From assembly GCF_018143015.1 (NCBI RefSeq), contig NC_054740.1:72065856-72129855 (forward strand): a stretch of 64,000 nucleotides of DNA. Direction: 5' to 3'. Position 1 is the first letter of the stretch, and each line of letters opens with the position of its first letter. Under the pieces are notes generated by a model, which saw only the letters and a list, made by a program, of their open reading frames with translations, made no database searches and had not been told where the DNA came from. The translations under genes were made by a program, and so were the position numbers. Positions 28,630-61,854 of the stretch are shown piece by piece. The DNA is from Lytechinus variegatus (lineage: Eukaryota > Echinodermata > Echinoidea > Temnopleuroida > Toxopneustidae).

Positions 28630-30100
28630 ACTCAATCCATGATATTTTAAAAAATGTTTTGACGTAGGCCTACGGTATACTTCTTCATCATGGAGCCTTT
28701 CACTGTCTGAATCTGTGAAGTTCCTGGTCCTGATCCTCAAGTGGATATTGATGACCAATAAGAACGTTAGCGATCGAGAGAGCTCAATATTTTTAGTAGG
28801 GATAACACACAAAAATCTAAAGAAGATAATATCCTTTCAAAAACCATTCTGTCTTACAGAGCTTTATGAGAGCTTTATTTTAAAACAAACCTCAAGTAAA
28901 ATGACCAATGTATTGCAAAGTTATGGCCGATTTAAGTTATCCGGAAAAGGGCAAAAATCTGCCGGAAATCATCAAAATTGCCCTAAAAGGCAAAAAAACG
29001 GCTTTTTGGGCAATTTCAAGGATCTGTTATATCACAAATATGAATATATAATATCTAAAAACACTTGTCCATAGCTACAGCACTTGTGTTCTAGGGAATC
29101 TGCTCAAATGGGATCATCAGAGTAAGTCGCCGCCATATTACAGTCTCCGGAACGGGACCAATTATTCAAAATCACTCATCCGCAACGTAAGAAAACACTT
29201 CGAAATATGCAAATTAGACCTAATTAATATGCATAAATGCAATAACTCAAGTTATATTAGGTTTCATGCCATGAAACTTGGCATGATGTCTTCTTGCACT
29301 AAAACCTTTCATTTTGACCACATTTTATTAATCTATCATCAAGAATATGCAAATTAGCTCATTAATTATTCAAATTAGACATTTTATGCACATAAAATAT
29401 TACATAATTCATGAAATGTTCAATGACAACCAAAGCGCCATCACATGGTTTGTCTTGTTCACATGGATTAAATATAGAAGGTAAACTGTAACATTTGAAC
29501 ACTTCTATTTTTACCTATACAGTGTTGAACATGTTTGCTTTTGTTTTGCAGATGGGCTTGTCCATTAATTGGCACGGAGTCACTACCAAGGGGATCAGAT
29601 CGAGAAAGTGGAACTTGAAACCAACAATGAACTGACGACCTGATGGGAAAAAGATGAGGCCATTCAAGGCATATTCATAAATTTCCTGATAAGTTTTGAA
29701 GGTCTGGTAGTTGAACACATTGGACATACAATTTAAAACTAGCGGCATATGTCTATCTTATCTCATGTACACTGAGATTTGTTTCAAGCATCAAAATAAT
29801 ATTCCAGATATATGCTATTTTATGTTCAGACTTTTACTAAGACTATGCCCAGTATATATTTGCAGACCTGTATATTTGTACAAACTGTAATGTAATTGTA
29901 AACTTAGTTCACAAGGTGGAATGTTGCATTAGATTGAAAGACATTCATACCAAAACTTTAAAAGCGAGTCTGTTGGTATGACAAGTAATATTGCAAATGC
30001 CAAGCTTGTTATTATTATTATTGTGTACATAAAAATGAAAAGAGAATGAAATAACATATATTTGTAGTAGATCAACTCAAATCTTTCCAAAATGGAAAGT
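28630..30100. other. Intergenic, no gene supported
   Basis: AT-rich, with ATGCAAATTAG and TTAATTAT strings repeated around 29210-29380 that look like a dispersed repeat. A 77-codon minus-strand frame (29748-29515) has natural composition but no recognisable family. Confidence 0.4.
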
Positions 30101-30105
30101 AAAGT

Positions 30106-30246
30106 GGTATGACTTTGGACACAATAGAAAACAAGTATTATTTCATTTAATAATAGCGCTTCATACATTGGTATCTAGGCACTATAAATGTAACTATTAT
30201 TATCATTATTAAATGAAACATTTTTTCTGTTGTGTCCAAAGTCACC
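30106..30246. repeat. 140-bp foldback beside the decayed 3' copy
   Basis: GACTTTGGACACAATAGAAAA at about 30110-30130 is mirrored by TTCTGTTGTGTCCAAAGTC at about 30225-30243, and TTTCATTTAATAATAG by TATTATTAAATGAAA. This is a hairpin-forming inverted repeat. Confidence 0.65.
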
Positions 30247-30575
30247 CCAGTTTACGGTACATTTGTACACATACCTCTTCGCCTGCCACATCTCCAGATA
30301 ATCATCCTCCAATTCTTTTTCCAGAAGATATTTGTACAAGTCCTTAGCATTGTCACACATGTACATAAAGGTGTGAAATGTACATGTATATCATTTGTCC
30401 AAATAAAGTTCATTTGATCCATCAAGTCTCCACTTCAATGTCCATTAGTACTGTTAAGTAAATTTTCTCAAAAATCTGCCACGATATGTGACAAGATGTT
30501 AACCACCTTCTGGAATAAAGTTGTCTCTTTATAATCTCTTGTGTAGAATGCAGTTTCAAGAAAGGGCTATATTCC
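30246..30575 (-). pseudogene. Decayed tandem copy of the 3' end of the large gene
   Basis: On the minus strand the reading DLYKYLLEKELEDDYLEMW mirrors DLYTYPLEKEWEDNCLEIM at the end of the intact gene about 320 bases away. Nucleotide similarity continues further: CTGCCACGATATGTGACAAG here against CTGCCATGGTATGTGACGAG there, and CCACCTTCTGGAATAAAGTT against CCACCTTCTGGAAGAAACTT. Frame is lost along it. This is a partial tandem duplication of roughly the last 330 bp. Confidence 0.7.
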
Positions 30576-30601
30576 CTTTTCTGTTCTATGATTATAAATG
30601 T

Positions 30602-33600
30602 TTACATAATCTCCAGACAATTATCCTCCCATTCCTTTTCCAGAGGATATGTGTACAGGTCCTCATCACTGTCGTACATAAGGGTGTAGAAAGTATACCC
30701 TTTGTCCAAATATTCCTGATCACTTGATTCCATCAATTCTTCAATGTCCTGCTGAGTACTTTTTCTCAAAACTCTGCCATGGTATGTGACGAGACGTTTG
30801 CCACCTTCTGGAAGAAACTTGTGTTTAATTCTCTTGTGTAAAATGGCAGTCTCAGGAAAAGGTTCCTTTCGTTTTCTTCCTTTCACTTTTGATAGCAATT
30901 TTTCTCGTAAGGATTTCCTTTCTTCTTGAAGAGTATCACTATCAGAGAATATAACAGATCTACCAGATTCTGACTGACTGATGGGAGCTAAATTAACAAC
31001 TCTTATTATCTCCTTTAGGTTGTTACTTAGGTCAGATGAGCTCAGGGGTTTACCAGCCTTTGATTTAAAAAACAAAGCACCTTTTACCAATCCTTTGTTC
31101 ACAGATTTGTAGTAGTCGATCTGTGCCAACAGAGCCTCTCTTTGATCAGACGGAGCCTTCATAGACATCATGGACTCCACATCAGCACTTGAAGTACAAG
31201 GACCATCACACAACTTATTTACCATCTCAGTTGCTCGGACGGTTGCTGCAACCAATTTTCTTTTCTTTTCCTCTTTAGCTTGTTGCTGTCTGTCCATAAT
31301 CTCTTGCCTTTCCTTCTTCATTTCCTTCACCTTGTCCTGGTAACTCTTCAAAACAATTCTTTTATTCTTGGTGGCAGCTTTGATCAGTTTGGATTTTTCT
31401 TCCTCAGAACACTTATCAAGATATTCCATGGATTTGTTTTGGGACCACAGCAATATGCCTTGCATCGCAAGCACTGTCAAGTTTGGTCTTGATCTTTTGA
31501 GGTAATCCAACCCAGCAAACATTCTCTCAGCTGCTATGTTGTCTCTTGGGCATGTCTCAGTTTCCTCATGAACTCTATTATCCACATTATGGTGTTTGCC
31601 TCCAGGTAAGTGATCTTCAAGCTGTCGTTTGATACACACAAAGATGTTGTGTAAGATGATGATGATTGACTGCTTTGCGTAGAAGTCTACTTCTTCGTTC
31701 ACTTCACTGTACAAACCTTTGTGTACTTCATTCTCTTTCGGTGGATATTCAGGAAACAATACTGCACTATCATTCAAGAGATCAGTAGGGTCTTCCATTT
31801 GCTCATACACAAAGTCATGAAGCCTAGTGTAGTATCTGTCAGTATCCATTACATGACCTCTGCTCTCAATCATATGCATGAGTGGAGTCGAAAGATGAAC
31901 ACATAGGATGCCCATTGCCCTAATGCCTCCGAGAATGATGTTGTCTTCAAGATCCCACATGACAGACTTTATCAGAGTATTGCTTTGTTTTCTGGCAGGC
32001 AAAGTGTTGCAAACATCCTTGAAATGGTTGTTGACGTAATGATAATAAGTGGCAGCTGAATTTTCAAATGGAACATTAAACCTATTACCCCTGTAAGCTC
32101 TCAGATAATTCTGCTTGGTGAAGGCTTTGAACTCCTGGGGACAACCTGCCTGTGGATGTGCATCTGGTCCAAATGCTTCACAAACAGTTCTAACTGCCAG
32201 CATTGCTGCAGATTCTGACTTTTTATTCCATGGGATGTGCGACTCTCGTCCCAGCTTCCTTCCAGCAGATTCAACAGTTTCCCATGCTTGTAGTGCTGCT
32301 GTAGCATACTCTTGGAAATTCAGCACCAGATGTTTTCCGCAATACAAATCATTGACGCTTGCCATTTTTTCCTTTACTTGGGTAGACAGTTCCTCCCAAT
32401 TATCAATGACAGATGGCAGAAATTTCTGTCGCCACTCCTCCAACAGCCTTATGAACTTCTTATTTACAATGCACCGATCAGTCATGGTGTTCTTAACTTT
32501 TGCAAGTAGTAGTTCTGCCCTTTTTTCAGTTTCAGCACTGATGACTTCCAGAGACAGAAGTTCTCTCATGGCTGACACAGCTTCATTCAGGAGTGTATCG
32601 GCATCTTCTGTTAAGACTTCAGTGAGGCTAAGTCCATTAAGTACCGTATTCTGTGGCTGTTAACATTGTGACATACGACTGATGTTTTTTAGTTGTGCCA
32701 TCTGTTTGCAGAGTAACAGGACATGAACTCTTCTCTACAGCATCCTTTGCTACATGTTTAGCAAGAAGGGCTTGTTCATATGTCATATAACGGATGCATG
32801 ATGCTTTTGGAAGTCTTCCACAATTTAGGCCTGTAAGCCTCTTCAGAACCAGACGTATGATGTCAGATATGTGTCGTGGACTGATTCCCTTCGCCAATAA
32901 TTCATAACACACAGTTCTGATGTCAGATGAAAACGCTCCGTTTTCGTAACACGATATCTCTTTGTCACCCATTATTTCGTCTAACTGACTTCGCAGTGTA
33001 TCATTTTGCCTCTCAATTTCCCTCAGCTGTTCCTTCAATTGTACATTCTCTGCATCCATTTTGTTCTCAATCTCCGTTCGCTTCTTTGTGTTGTACCTCA
33101 CTTGTTCTGTTCTGTTCTTTTTCAGCCTCATAAGCTCATCAACTTCATTATTAAGCTTTATGATCTCATCTTGCAGCTCAGACACATGTCCCTTTTCTCT
33201 GTCAAGTTGCTTCTCTTTAGTTGCTAAGCGACGAACAACATTGCTTCTGGAAAGCGAACAAATTTCTTTCTCTAACTGCTTACACAGTTCGTCAGCCTTC
33301 TTCAACTTGATCTGGTATTTGGAACATTCCTTTTGGTGGCTCTTCATCATTTCCATTACAACTCCTTCTGCCTTATTGACTTTTGCTGCATTCTCTTCAT
33401 TCAATTGTTCTGCTTTGTTTCTTTCACTTGTCACTTCAAGCAACTGCCTTTTTTTCTTTTTTCTCCCTTTTTTCTCCCTTTTTTCAGTCTCCAAAAGTTC
33501 ATGAAGAACAGCAAGTGTATCCCCATGCTTTCTTAACATGTAAGGAGACGAAACTTCATGACATGCGTTCAAAGTGTCATCCCCACTGTTGCTGTGAGTC

Positions 33601-35475
33601 ACAAGGGGAGGCTCATTTTCATTGGTAGGGTCATCTTCCAGTTGCTCTTCTTTGGTGGGTTTTTTGGTTGGATAGCTGTAGGGAGTTCTTAAAAATTCCT
33701 CCAGCAATTCTCTGCTTGAATCCCTACTTAAAGTTTTTTTCTTTTCAGCTACGCTTTTCCAGCTGCTTTGGACAGTTCCCATTGATGGCACGTGTACTTC
33801 ATCAGCTTTCTCTGGAAACAACCCACACCACCACTTATCAAGAACAGTCTTCCAAGGAATGGAATTTTGTCTGCGATAGTGAAATAGCTCCGCAATGATC
33901 CCATTTGTGATCTCTCCATGTAAAGCACTGCATCCTTCTGTTAGCCAAATGGGCATAATTCCCAACTGTTGACATGATGAACCAATAACATCCTTAGGCC
34001 CCAAAAATTCTGTAAATTCTTCACAAAGGGATGCTAAATTATTTGCAGTGATTGCTTTCAGAGCAGTGCGTTTTACTTTATACAGGATTCCAGGTAATGT
34101 GCATTTAGGTTCTTTGATACCCATGTTCTTCAAAATGGGAATAAAGTCCTTCCGATAGCTCAATCTGTCACTGTCATCAACGGTTTTTCGAATGATTTCA
34201 ATGAGTCCATATGTTGGCCTTGGGTCTTTCCACCAGTGATCTGTGATTTAAAAAGAAAGAAATTATAAAAAAATAAATTGTACTTAATTGAACAAGGGAA
34301 AAAATAAACACAACATATAGAACAGGAATATGGGGGGGGGGGGCCTAAAAAAATGACATTCATTATGACTATGTTCTTCACTCAATTTTTAATTGAACAA
34401 AATTACTTAATTGATTAATACTTTGCTTACTTTGATATTAAAAGGTATTGATGTACTTGCGAGCTTTAATAGTAATCTATTGAAGGAAAATATATTTTCA
34501 AGAAAATTAAATCAAACTAAGAAATAAGCGAAGAACAGAATTATATTGTGTATAATATCACAGACTAGACCTAGAAACATTAAACTTGGGGGTGGGGGTA
34601 CTGCCATAAAAAAGGTAGAAAACTGTACACAATACTTATTAAAAGCATTTAAAAAGGTTGTTGTTCATGATTGTGTAAGCCTGCAAAGTTATTTTTGTGA
34701 CTGGGCACTGAATGTCATACAAGGAAAAGGATTTTAAAATTGCCAAAATAAAGGGGAAAAGGTGTTATACAAATCATTATAAAATTATACTCATCAAATG
34801 AATTCAGAGAATGAGGGATAATTGAGGGATAATTATTTGTTTAGGATATGTTTTGGAAGTCAAATTTGCATCCTATTGTAATGGCATGTAACCCCCCCAC
34901 ACTGCTTTTGGCAGCAAATGATGGAAAGGCAACATAAGAGCTTTGCAGTGTGCACAATTAATACAACAAAATTAAGTATCTATGACAATAAAGAAGCAAT
35001 GTCAGATTTCAAATTTAAATCTTGTTTTTTTTTAATTTCCGGGTATCAAAAAAGGCTTTCACCACTATCGAATTGACAAAGAAAGCGTAGAAAAGCTCAT
35101 TACATGAAAAGCTTTAATTTTCAGAGGGAGGTAATCGAATTGCCGGCATTCGTACTGCGCATGCGCAGTAAAAAATAAAATTGGTCGGGGAACGTGGACG
35201 ACGATACATTGGCTGTGTAATTCTACGCGCGCTCCCCCCTGGAAAATCATGGCAAAAAAAATCACGACAAGTCTGAAACAGGTCGATTATTTTCACATTT
35301 CAAGTCACTTTCACACCATTTCACGATAAAAATCAATCAAAATAGGTACTGAAAATATATAATCGACACAAATCTACTCACCAGGACATGTCCTTTCGTG
35401 TACAAGAGAGTGAATTTCTTCGGCGGTCCATCCAGTGTGGTGGAGTATTCGTTCGTATGCCGCGGCAGAAGCCAT
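30602..35475 (-). CDS. Large coiled-coil / hAT-like RNase H-fold candidate protein, spliced, with one frame offset
   Basis: I do not recognise a named family. Exon 1 (35475-35382) begins MASAAAYERILHHTGW and ends at GTGAGT. Exon 2 starts at 34240 after TTTAAATCACAG, joining in phase to give ERTCPDHWWKDPRPTYGLIE. The frame runs about 565 aa to a TAA at 32639-32637, then continues in another frame (from about 32642) as VLNGLSLTEVLTEDADTLL and some 675 more residues to 30602. The first part is followed by a Lys/Glu-rich coiled coil of roughly 150 residues. Then come CPVTLQTDGTTKKHQSYVTM, MTDRC, YCGKHLVLNFQEYA and, late, NIAAERMFAGLDYLKRSRPN. These sit where hAT-type transposases have the first Asp, second Asp, C..H.LNL and the C-terminal ER.FS helix. 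The C-terminus is basic. Function as a transposase, or a domesticated relative, is inference. The single offset may be a mutation, an assembly error or programmed +1 shifting. Confidence 0.7.
34241..35381 (-). other. Intron 1 of the large gene
   Basis: AT-rich intron with a poly-G run (34331-34342). The donor is GTGAGT and the acceptor AAATCACAG. I see no other feature inside it. Confidence 0.6.
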
Positions 35476-36140
35476 CGTGACAGCTGAGAACGTCGTACCG
35501 CGTATCGAGCAGTGTTTGGATGAAAAATTAATTTGCACTGTTCAAAGTCATTTTCGCGGGTGTTACACTCAGGTTCAGCAAAAAACTTTTACATGACTGA
35601 AAAATATAGGTTCCAACCGTCAAGAAGCTATATTCTAACTTCCAAAATACGTTTCGATTGTGGAGATATGACGGATCTACGCTACGCGGTGAAATCGGCC
35701 ATAACTCGACTCAAACTTGGTTTCCAAGGAAGTAGAACCCAGGGTCATATTCAGAAAGGTCAACATGTCCTTATATGGAATTTTCATGAACATATTTGGA
35801 GTGTAACATGAAAGGAACGTCGATTTTCTGGAGGGATGTTTTTAGTTTTTTCAGTGCGCATTGGAAAAGACGCCGAGTCATACGCCCAGCGTCTCAGTCA
35901 GGTATGTGCACTGGCAGTCTGTTAGAGTAAAATATTGATTTAAAATGCTCATTCTTCGTGAAAAAGAGTGAAAATTGAGACAGAGTACATTGACAGATAC
36001 AAGAAACTGGAGGTGAAGTAATCAATTGAAAATGATTATTTAAAAAAACACAGGAATGTTTTTAAAAGGTACAATAATTATGTTTGCACATGCATTGATG
36101 AATTTAAGCGTCTCAAGCAGACTCTTAGCGCACACTCTGT
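35476..36140. other. 5' flank of the large gene, no gene seen
   Basis: Moderately CpG-containing sequence just upstream of the exon 1 ATG; it probably includes the promoter. An open frame at 35533-35811 has no recognisable domain. Confidence 0.35.
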
Positions 36141-36153
36141 GCGATGCCTATTT

Positions 36154-37530
36154 TTAGTACATTTTGGAGTTGAGTCCCACCACTTTGCAATTGACTGGAG
36201 GGACTATAGTAATTATTCCTTTCACGATAGTATCCCACAGTTTATTTTTGAATGTCTCAGGGGTCTTGGAGCAAATAACATCAGGAGGAAGAAGGTTCCA
36301 AGCCCGGATGGTTTTCGGGAAGAATGAATGACGGTAGATGTCGGTGTTGCATCTGATGTTGGAGAGGGAGAGTCTATGGTGACCCTTTAGGGCCCTCCTT
36401 GGTTGAGTAATGTACTCAGGTCTGGGTATAGCGACTCGGTCATGGATGGACTTGTAGAGCAACGTCTGTCTGGATACAAACCGTCTGTGTTGAAGCGGCT
36501 GCCAATCCAATTCTCTCTTTAGGTCAGATACATGCACATCCATGCCATATTTGCCTGTGACAAACCTCGCTCCTCTGTTTTGGACAGCCTCCAATTTGTT
36601 GATGTGTTTAGATAAGAATGGATCCCATATGCTACAGGCATATTCCAGATGTGGTCTAACTAGGCAGGTAAAAGCTGCTTCCCTGATTTTCTTAGTAGAA
36701 AAGCCAGATAGATTACGACGAATCATTCCAAGCATACAGTTCGCTTTTGTTGCTACTTTGTCCACTTGACTCTCCCATGACATGGTTTGAGTAAGTTCTA
36801 TTCCGAGGTAAGGATGCTGTTTGACCTCTTGCAGAGTAGTACCATTTATCGTGTACGCTTGGGGGATCAGATTCCGTCTCTTCTTTGCAATTCGTAGTAT
36901 ATAGCATTTGGACACATTGAATTCCATTTGCCACCTGTCTGCCCAGTTGGAAAGCCTGTCAAGATCAGACTGGAGGATTTCTGAGTCAATTCTGGAATTG
37001 ATTGTCCGGTAGAGGATGCAGTCGTCCGCAAATAACCTCAAATTCGAAGATATGTTTGACGAGATGTTGTTGATATAGATGAGGAAGAGTAACGGGCCGA
37101 GAACGGACCCTTGCGGCACGCCTGATAATACCTTTGCCGAGTCCGAGCTCTCCCCATCAACTACTACCCTCTGTGTTCTAGTTGTCAGCCAGATCTCAAT
37201 CCAACGTAAGAGTTGGCCATGGATGCCACACTTTCGTAGTTGAAGGAGAAGCCTTTGATGAGGTACCTTATCAAAGGCTTTGCTGAAGTCTAGTATCAAA
37301 ACATCTTGCTGTGATCCTTGGTCCAGTGACCGTGACAAGTCTTCAATGGTCAGGACAAGTTGACTCTCACAGCTTCGGCCTTTCCGAAATCCATGTTGAT
37401 TTACATTCAGGAAGTTGTTACTTTCAAGGTGCTTGATGATGTGCTTGTAGATGAGATGTTCCATTATCTTACAGGATTGAGAAGTAAGGGAAACCAGGCG
37501 ATAGTTTTCTCCCATATATGCCCCCATATT
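36154..37530 (-). mobile_element. 5'-truncated LINE with open reverse transcriptase frame (CR1/Jockey-like)
   Basis: The 457-codon frame starts inside the RT domain (NYRLVSLTSQSCKIMEHLIY). It continues through QHGFRKGRSCESQLV, DVLILDFSKAFDKVPHQRLL, SGVPQGSVLGPLLFLIYIN and the catalytic RLFADDCILYRTI, then the thumb and C-terminal region (RPHLEYACSIWDP, LEAVQNRGARFVTG). This order is that of CR1/Jockey-group non-LTR retrotransposons. ORF1 and the endonuclease are missing, as expected of 5' truncation during target-primed insertion. The frame has no stop over 1.37 kb, so the insertion is probably recent. No gag-like upstream frame is seen. The exact clade is uncertain. Confidence 0.9.
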
Positions 37531-37539
37531 GATTATAAG

Positions 37540-38450
37540 TTAAGAGACAAATCATAAAAGATGGATTTCCCTAGATAGGAAATCCATCTTTGTCTTTGAA
37601 GATAGAAATTTAGAATTAGAAATCACGTAAGTTTGTGATTTTAAGTTATTTTTAAACCTTCATTCGCCCACTCATTCAATGAACAAGGTTATAATATATT
37701 ATAACCTTGTTCTCAGTTATATCTCCATGTGTGGCAAAATTAGGGTGGCAATGTTTGGCTTATTTTCTCTTTTTCTTTGGGGCAAGTCATGTTTGATTTT
37801 TTGACACTGTCAGGTTCCATTACACCTATTATTCATACACCTTGGCTCTTATTGAAATTTGATTCTTTAAATCATTTTTTCTTAATTAGAAATAGGGATC
37901 AAAAAATGAAAATTTTCTTGCCATATTACTTTCCACCAATAGAGGGCGTACACAAAAATATGCCAAAAATTCAAGTTTTTGAGCGCTCTGGTGAATACAA
38001 AAATTATGCCTAAGTTACTAATGAGAAATCAATTGCAACTGTTTGGAAATTAGTAATTTTGGTCACAAAAGTGATATTTTAATGATTTTTTGAAGTGTGT
38101 GCTCTGTACAAAATTGGCATACCATTGGCCTACCTGTAGATTCCCTACAGGCAGGGTGGTAGCAGTGAACAAGTGCATTCGCCAAACGTTAATGCGTATG
38201 AAGGTCAAACAATTTTTGATAAAATTAAAAAGGTGATAAATTGAATGTTAGTTACTTATCAATACTATTACAAGTGTATACCAGACTGATCTCGTGTCTT
38301 CCCTCGATCCATTTGTCAACAAAGCAAATACAATAGGTCTGACCCTTGAACCGCTTCGTTATGATGTACCATTCTTCGATTAGCGATGATACAAAATGCT
38401 GTTTTGAAGAGTAATTTATAGTTCTAGATAAAAATTATTATTTAACAAAT
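37540..38450. other. Intergenic with small hairpins, no gene
   Basis: GATGGATTTCCCTAGA...TAGGAAATCCATC at 37559-37590 is a perfect-looking short palindrome, and ACAAGGTTATAATATATTATAACCTTGT near 37683 is another (28 bases in two mirrored arms). No coding region is supported. Confidence 0.55.
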
Positions 38451-41092: not shown

Positions 41093-51303
<10,211 letters not shown>

Positions 51304-58507: not shown

Positions 58508-60199
<1,692 letters not shown>

Positions 60200-60496: not shown

Positions 60497-61814
60497 CTAA
60501 TTGCTTGGGGTGCAATTGTTGATAATTCTGATCGCGCCTTTATTTTCCAGGTCCAAGAGAAACTGATATTCTTCCGGCATTTTGTGGGCATTCGTTGTAT
60601 AGTTCACGTATACCTCCGGCTCATAATAATGATGTAGAATTGTCCGATTGTACGGGTCCGTGTGGAACGGGTAGAATCCAAACAACGATACCTCGTCACA
60701 CAGTTGAAACATGGGGGCGAGAAGGGTTAAGCCAGACGATGGCGCCCTAAAATGCCACAACCTGTAAACAAATAAATTCAAATTGTTGTAAATCATGGAG
60801 TAGTACTTCGATCCTCATTAAAATGGATGTGCGTATAAGTCAACATCCATTGGCAATTATGATAATTATAAACATCATATCAGACACGGGGCCTTTTGCT
60901 AAGATCCAAGCTCTTATTTTTTCCAATTCATGGGTACAAAAATGTTGGCTTTTGTCCCCCATATTCCATCCCCATCAAGTGAAGCCAATGTATTTCAGCA
61001 GAACAACCAAACCAATGGTACAGAGACTGGCGCTTTTAGTTTACTAGTAATGAATGATTTGGTCGTATATTGTGCTATATTATCAATTTGACTAAATGGA
61101 AACGTGATAGAATTTCGATCAAAGTATAAGAAGGTGAAAGCTTGCGACGTCATTCTTTCACTCAACTTCATATCGCCACGCAGGTGCACATTGTTTGAAA
61201 GATATCTAAAAACAATTGGTATTTTTGTTGACATTTTGAACAATATGTAAGATTTCACCCCCATCTACTGGAATCGGTATTGGGAATGAATGAATTACCG
61301 GATTGCGGGTGAAATTAAAGATTTATAATTGATCCCGTGGCTGAAGAAAAGATGAAACCGTTCTCTCAGATGAGGGAGAAGAGGAGTTATCTTGTCCGCA
61401 TGGCCCCTGGATGTCCAAAGGACACTATCATTCTTTAGTAGCTTCAGCCTGTTGATCGTAGTGCCGCACTCTGCAGGTATTCTTGTCAACCACTCAGAGG
61501 CTGATTCATTTTCTTTCTTTTTATTTGTGAAGCACGCTTTCAAGAGTCTGCACTGTTCCCCGTTGATGGTCATAAAGGATACCTTCGAACCCACGTCGGG
61601 GGAGTACTCGTGACCAAACTCGGCCAAATTCATCCTGATAACCAGGTCGGATTCGTCTATCAGATGGCCACAACCGCTGTTCAAAAGTATTCCCGAATTC
61701 CCCACAAGAGCGCAAGACTCCACTCGCTCTGGTATTTCACTGATGGCTGTCTTGTTGTTGCCATAGAATATCTTTATTGGCTTTCTTTGATGCATTTGCG
61801 TCCCGACTGTCTTT
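60497..61814 (-). CDS. Alpha-2,8-sialyltransferase-like (ST8Sia), last two exons
   Basis: A Golgi type II enzyme family (GT29) transferring sialic acid from CMP-sialic acid to glycans. Two exons: 61814-61299 and 60761-60497, joined GTAATT / TTTACAG in phase (PAI-R-LWHF), giving about 260 C-terminal residues. Sialyl motif L begins ESCALVGNSGILLNSGCGHL and runs to DVGSKVSFMTIN. Motif S is APSSGLTLLAPMFQLCDEVS then LFGFYPF, motif III is HHYYE, and motif VS is HKMPEE. The last Cys (NNCTPSN) fits the family's C-terminal disulphide. The upstream exons with the membrane anchor and stem are not found in the remaining 2.2 kb and are presumably beyond the window. MTIN with weak NPS context is unlike vertebrate ST8SIA1-6, so I cannot choose a subfamily. 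Confidence 0.9.
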
Positions 61815-61854
61815 CTGCAGGTTTAGACGAATGGGGAAAGAAAGCATCAAAATC

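Follow-up and report, generated by a model that had tools for sequence, protein, structure and literature searches.

A probable divergent hAT-like DNA transposon in Lytechinus variegatus, with a profile-level Spindlin-like domain at the C-terminus of related lineages

A stretch of 64,000 nucleotides of the Lytechinus variegatus genome (contig NC_054740.1, positions 72,065,856 to 72,129,855; the window, in which all coordinates below are given) carries two long open reading frames (ORFs) whose nature is the question raised by this locus: do they belong to a host gene or to a mobile element, and if the latter, of what kind? A sequence-only reading of the window had placed a spliced gene or transposon at 30602–35475, with a protein of about 1,245 aa, and had suggested a hAT-like transposase or a domesticated descendant of one. 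The locus is here interpreted as a divergent hAT-like cut-and-paste DNA transposon, not a host gene, with a probability of roughly 0.85. That it is a transposon is argued from its target site duplication, its empty site and its multiple copies. The hAT-like assignment is argued from the predicted fold of a relative (the C15 copy; relatives are given by handles of this kind), the placement of the catalytic residues, the ends beginning TAGG and the short target duplications.

The whole transposon, from inverted end to inverted end, occupies 28797–36150 on the minus strand (7,354 bp), as delimited by the duplication, the ends and the empty site. The gene parts at 30602–35475 are thus as previously read, within a larger unit. 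The element is flanked by a direct repeat, TTTTTAG, at 28790–28796 and 36151–36157. Its 3' terminal inverted repeat, TAGGGATAACACAC (28797–28810, plus strand), matches the other end in 10 of 14 bases; its 5' terminal inverted repeat, TAGGCATCGCACAG (36137–36150, minus strand), adjoins the duplication. Both are imperfect repeats beginning TAGG. TTTTTAG occurs once between 20001 and 31000, at 28790, and TAGGGATAACACAC comes directly after it. When 22001–45000 was scanned for any 7 bp repeat beside TAG..CTA around the gene, this was the sole candidate pair; the same scan at the C9 locus returned the true pair, with 8 of 14 bases matching, and one chance pair. The window 3' end is similar to that of the C9 copy, TAGCCATAGCACAC. 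Homology to the C5 relative ends near 36161, beside TAGGCATCGCACAG, with CTAAAAA just outside that repeat. An initial scan for inverted ends around the gene had given six matches, about the number expected by chance, and was superseded by the duplication-anchored ends; its pairing of TAGGGAATCTAC at 38148 with 29104 lacked a duplication and was dropped.

The empty site was sought by joining the two flanks into a 449 bp query, which returned 57 rows in total, two of them the window's own halves. Ten other places in the genome align in a single alignment over the last 334 bases, including the joint, at 97–100% identity. An eleventh spans the joint at 95% and more do so over shorter lengths. The best match, 100% over 334 bp, is an uninterrupted copy of a long interspersed nuclear element (LINE). 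The reverse transcriptase ORF of the interrupted LINE lies at 36154–37539 on the minus strand (Pfam RVT_1, 1.4e-34), with its other piece at 28706–28796, the transposon having split its 3' part; this LINE has many near-identical genome copies, some in adjacent inverted pairs. The window copy therefore entered a LINE, and the insertion is itself probably young, since intact copies match the interrupted LINE over the junction at up to 100% identity.

Relatives were sought in 869.6 Mb of the genome using the 685 aa half of the protein, and at least 64 matching rows were found, corresponding to at least 51 places, the window included; a count of genomic copies had been proposed as a check on the sequence-only reading. 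Six near-identical relatives have an exact 15 bp inverted repeat, TAGGGTGTCTGGACG, at both ends. Of the 13 genomic occurrences of this pattern, 12 make up the six pairs, and its reversed control does not occur at all. The six are 99.0–100% alike in protein over the parts compared, have frames of 1,240–1,244 aa in five cases and 787 aa in one, and are 8,073–10,587 bp long. Clean 7 bp duplications flank five of them (CTAATTA, CTCATTT, CTCAATG, TTCTGAT, and TTTAAAG). The C9 copy lies between two CTGATAG sequences, also of 7 bp, and when its flanks are joined they form an unbroken LINE reverse transcriptase frame. The C9 copy is 98–99% identical in DNA to the C15 copy where the two align. It is this C15/C9 type that is the closest long relative of the window copy, with 47% identity in the 685 aa half and 31% in the 536 aa half; the C12 copy is nearer (46–56%) but more fragmented. 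In the C15 copy, too, the frame is broken, near the C-terminus. The only DNA-level relative found for the window copy is C5, 79–82% alike.

Read in the coding-strand direction, the seven duplications have T at position 2 in six cases and A at position 6 in five. The hAT target consensus is nTnnnnAn, and the seven resemble a shortened form of it, on a small sample and in a pattern noticed after the fact. The ends of hAT elements are short inverted repeats that start with YAGNG or similar; TAGGGTGTCTGGACG at both ends of the six copies and the TAGG of the window copy have a hAT-like start.

Several other members of the family were seen. A second clade (L022, L026–L030) has shorter single frames of 648–699 aa that start before the first catalytic Asp, and the N-terminal part of these may be on other exons. 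L014 has a family frame of 1,187 aa. The similarity of the pair L005/L006 extends beyond 10 kb, and no convincing pair of ends was found for it, with one 6/14 candidate in one copy and none in the other. Long tandem arrays, alike to one another, are found at two unrelated places, one downstream of the C19 copy (L036), the other downstream of the C4 copy (L032/L040); each lies about 1–4 kb past, or right at, the point where the likeness to the paired copy stops. Viral contigs scanned with one relative gave seven stretches fitting a pattern, none of which encodes a relative.

The two minus-strand frames reported from the sequence, ORF1 (536 aa, 32637–34247) and ORF2 (685 aa, 30602–32659), are present and are the longest two in the window. 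Present too is the GT-AG intron that joins a 31-codon exon in phase. Exon 1 (35382–35475, minus strand) has 31 codons and one base, MASAAAYERILHHTGWTAEEIHSLVHERTCP, and would be spliced to 34240 in the predicted phase 1 junction; intron 1 (34241–35381, minus strand) has the donor GTGAGT from 35381 and an acceptor CACAG ending at 34241. The acceptor position is common to the C12 and C15 relatives. An exon like exon 1, in the same phase and ending in SGWSDHDLTDLVTKRVVP, is found in the C15 and C9 copies before a phase 1 donor, CCAG/GTATGT; its local BLOSUM62 score of 39 compares with 31 for an alignment of chance-like quality at that locus. In the C12 copy, the 1.5 kb read upstream of exon 2 showed no exon of this sort. 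The donor region is kept in the C5 relative, at about 80% DNA identity. Comparison with relatives thus supports the predicted splice. Within intron 1, 840 bp leading up to the acceptor (34242–35081) are missing from the C5 relative, which may be either an insertion in the window copy or a deletion in C5.

The two long frames overlap at 32637–32659 (minus strand) in different frames, and for this reason no single continuous frame encodes the product of about 1,245 aa in the window copy: both frames of the earlier reading stand, their continuity does not. This frame break, the one interruption of the coding frame in this assembly, sits between the first and second catalytic Asp, at a place where the relatives that cover it are continuous. 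It was left unmended and the window protein was searched as two separate pieces. The 3' coding end is present a second time, in degenerate form, just downstream of the stop codon (30290–30524, minus strand), as an 82–83% DNA repeat of 30609–30822 with a protein match of 52%.

Four regions can be described in the protein, all encoded on the minus strand. A compact helical N-terminal domain (33672–33989) is predicted in an AlphaFold model of 33492–34241, which has a mean predicted local distance difference test score (pLDDT) of 63.3 and ten-residue means of 74–95 over residues 81–190. It has no PDB fold match with E ≤ 0.001, and a role in DNA binding is therefore only a guess. A long coiled coil follows (32958–33482; ORF1 residues 256–430), as had been noted from its Lys and Glu content, which is 32%; 28 of 2000 shuffles reach its heptad periodicity. 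The catalytic region contains LQTDGTTKKHQ, MTDRC, YCGKHLVLNF and AAERMFAGLDYLK, all present in the order originally described and in conserved columns, and the motifs DGTT, NTMTDR, C..H, GNRFN, and ER.F recur throughout the family. The C..H and C-terminal ER.F motifs belong to the hAT layout. Counting the rows of alignment A1 that reach each column, the first catalytic Asp (LQTDGTT, 32700–32702; D116 of the C15 model) is Asp in 14 of 14, the second (NTMTDRC, 32477–32479) in 14 of 15, the C..H motif (CGKH, 32330–32341) has C in 17 of 17 and H in 16 of 17, L021 beginning there, and the catalytic Glu (AAERMF, 31526–31528) is Glu in 17 of 17. A C-terminal domain (30605–30844) lies at the place of a Spindlin-like domain in other lineages.

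The fold was predicted with AlphaFold2 for 664 aa of the C15 relative from 20 alignment rows (pLDDT 85.1; predicted template modelling score, pTM, 0.73). The model has strands at 111–120, 123–131, 136–144, 182–187 and 230–233, separated by helices; a long all-helical part comes after. D116 is within strand 111–120, D188 just past strand 182–187, C234 and H237 just past strand 230–233, and E504 in the helix 501–516. The RNase H-like core that the inference of a hAT-like transposase called for is thus present in this model, and it carries D, D and E as well as an all-helical insertion. When the model was compared with the PDB using Foldseek, all 11 matches with E ≤ 0.001 were to the hAT transposase Hermes (probability 1.00, E 8.7e-6 to 1.3e-4). 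In Pfam the C15 relative matches RNase_H_2 weakly (E 0.035), below the cut-off.

If this assignment is correct, a cut-and-paste mechanism can be proposed in outline. The N-terminal helical domain would, as a guess, bind the transposon ends, and the long coiled coil would mediate oligomerisation. The hAT-type RNase H domain, with D, D, E, C..H and the all-helical insertion, would catalyse excision and insertion as in Hermes, and the stagger at the target would be 7 bp in place of the 8 bp of Hermes. In lineages having one, the Spindlin-like domain would bind methylated histone tails and bias insertion.

This last step depends on the C-termini of the family. A family-core profile matches Spindlin-4 and Spindlin-1 at 2e-8. 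With a profile of twelve C-termini, three of which are from the window clade, the first 17 rows are Spindlins (5.8e-12 to 1.9e-9), and with a profile of nine from other lineages only, Spindlins are the first 17 of 31 rows (E 1.5e-6 to 1.3e-5). Searched singly, L032 and L034 have Spindlin first (E 0.0084 and 0.027). Pfam matches of individual members are weak: 4 of 12 match Spin-Ssty (best E 0.025) and 5 of 12 match Agenet (best 1e-7). By profile, then, the other lineages end in a Spindlin-like domain. As mutually alignable C-termini occur in several deep branches of the family tree, the domain is probably old within the family. Spindlin binds H3K4me3 through an aromatic cage, and by analogy the domain may read histone marks.

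For the window clade the results point both ways. Against the profile of other lineages, the window C-terminus gives E 0.014 and scores above all 996 scored shuffles; the full ORF2 gives E 0.19, outscored by 4 shuffles, and the sisters of the window copy, L031 and L004, give E 5.6 and 18, outscored by 31 and 115 shuffles. Aligned by hhalign to the other lineages, the window clade gives E 0.0046 at a probability of just 7.7%, over 28 columns and in register. The Spindlin score rises from 31 to 49 bits once the window clade joins the profile, and the domain occupies the same place. Three results count against a Spindlin-like reading, one from L014, which has no match when searched alone, and two from the window clade: the window C-terminus alone, searched against the PDB, has no Spindlin match, and the window-clade profile reaches Spindlin-1 at just E 1.8, at rank 8 of 10.

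Further observations weigh against the hAT-like transposon as a whole. The fold model was made on the C15 relative, not on the window copy, and its whole-fold superposition on Hermes is loose, as the template modelling scores (TM-scores) are 0.25–0.46. No hAT model is among the Pfam matches listed for both halves and the relatives (for C15, 25 of 62 families). Compared by hhalign with three hATs resident in the genome, using a thin hAT profile, the family gives a probability of 1.2%; the single short alignment pairs the first Asp with a hAT Asp. Instead of the usual hAT 8 bp, five of the six TAGGGTGTCTGGACG copies, the C9 copy and the window copy have a duplication of 7 bp. The copy at C7:4898433, the remaining one of the six, is without a clean duplication, no 3' end was recognised for the C15 copy, and the window ends agree in just 10 of 14 bases where a chance pair at C9 reached 7. 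L014 has Asn where the second catalytic Asp is expected.

Other sequence searches were likewise negative. Searching the PDB by phmmer with the 685 aa half and the window C-terminus gave nothing useful, and a search with PF05699, the C-terminal dimerisation domain of hAT transposases, finds at least 21 places in the same genome (150 candidates scored out of 187, with E ≤ 1e-8), none of which is among the 64 family rows. No transposase family is among the Pfam matches listed for both halves and the relatives, so that annotations may well list copies of the element as uncharacterised proteins of the host.

Three other explanations were considered. The first is that this is a conventional, catalogued hAT family too divergent for Pfam, its Spindlin-like end being an incidental capture. 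The family may indeed already be catalogued in Repbase or Dfam, and hAT families with duplications of 5, 6 and 7 bp (hAT5, hAT6 and hAT7) are published (PMC12730594), which favours it. The alignment of like C-termini across deep branches, which makes the domain probably old, the proteins of about 1,240 aa and the lack of a Pfam hAT domain among the matches listed make this rather unlikely.

The second is that the element belongs to a different superfamily (P, KDZ, RAG/Transib, Mutator, or Dada) and shares with hAT no more than a general RNase H likeness. The lack of a sequence match to hAT favours it, and 7 bp duplications fit other superfamilies too, such as P and Dada. Below E 0.001, however, Foldseek ranks Hermes alone; the next transposases are Mos1 at rank 18 (E 0.05) and RAG at rank 19 (E 0.06); the best 50 of 781 rows do not include the P element. 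The C..H, GNRFN and C-terminal ER.F motifs follow the hAT layout, and none of the Pfam models of these superfamilies is among the matches listed. The P superfamily is characterised by a THAP domain and a GTP-binding insertion. No model of either is among the Pfam matches listed, and the N-terminal domain has no assigned family. Another superfamily is thus considered improbable. The third, a domesticated gene that serves the host, as had been suggested in the sequence-only reading, is largely refuted and very improbable, for although its frames are long and mostly open and its only DNA-level relative found, C5, is no closer than 79–82%, the duplication and both ends are still recognisable, the insertion looks young by the identity of the interrupted LINE to intact copies, and the frame is broken between the first two catalytic residues.

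A divergent hAT-like transposon is therefore preferred. It may be taken further, in a speculation we think unlikely to hold in full: the family would be a distinct superfamily-level lineage with a hAT-like fold, its Spindlin-type reader would be older than the split of the deep branches and would choose active or methylated chromatin, and the animal Spindlins may share an origin with this domain through such transposons. Chromodomain retrotransposons choose their targets through chromatin marks. If the proposal is true, a cut-and-paste transposase carrying its own histone reader would allow a direct test of whether a DNA transposon chooses its target by chromatin mark.

Elsewhere in the window there is a Tc1/mariner-type transposase ORF of 356 aa at 58748–59818 on the minus strand (HTH_Tnp_Tc3_2, 1.8e-23; DDE_3, 8.1e-15), a piece of a sialyltransferase gene at 61295–61822, also on the minus strand (Glyco_transf_29, 1.7e-21), and tandem arrays at 43149–44108 with reported periods of 192, 163 and 315 bp. 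There is no Rfam match within the window.

Among known systems, the family is most like Hermes and other hAT elements, sharing with them a predicted RNase H core with an all-helical insertion, the order D, D, C..H, E with ER.F, ends beginning TAGG, and short AT-rich duplications in which T and A are mirrored. It differs in having no detectable sequence similarity to the three resident hATs or to the Pfam models listed, in its 7 bp duplication, in its length (about 1,240 aa), in the extended coiled coil of its N-terminal part, and in the Spindlin-like C-terminus of its other lineages. The hAT7 elements of rust fungi also have a 7 bp duplication but are classed as hAT by transposase sequence similarity and are partly linked to TET/JBP genes in fungi (PMC12730594). 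The present family lacks such similarity, and no TET/JBP domain is among its Pfam matches listed. The C-terminal repeats of the other lineages match those of Spindlin (Spin/SSTY), which consists of three repeats alone, whereas here one or two are joined to a transposase. Among the literature titles and abstract openings listed, none concerned a DNA transposon that carries a Spindlin or Tudor domain. A Gypsy element of Ectocarpus is, to the knowledge of its authors, the first transposable element reported with a Tudor domain (PMC12477816). A mobile element with a C-terminal domain of the Tudor class is thus common to both cases; that of Ectocarpus is described there as a long terminal repeat (LTR) retrotransposon with a Tudor domain, whereas the family described here would be a DNA transposon with a domain of the Spindlin type.

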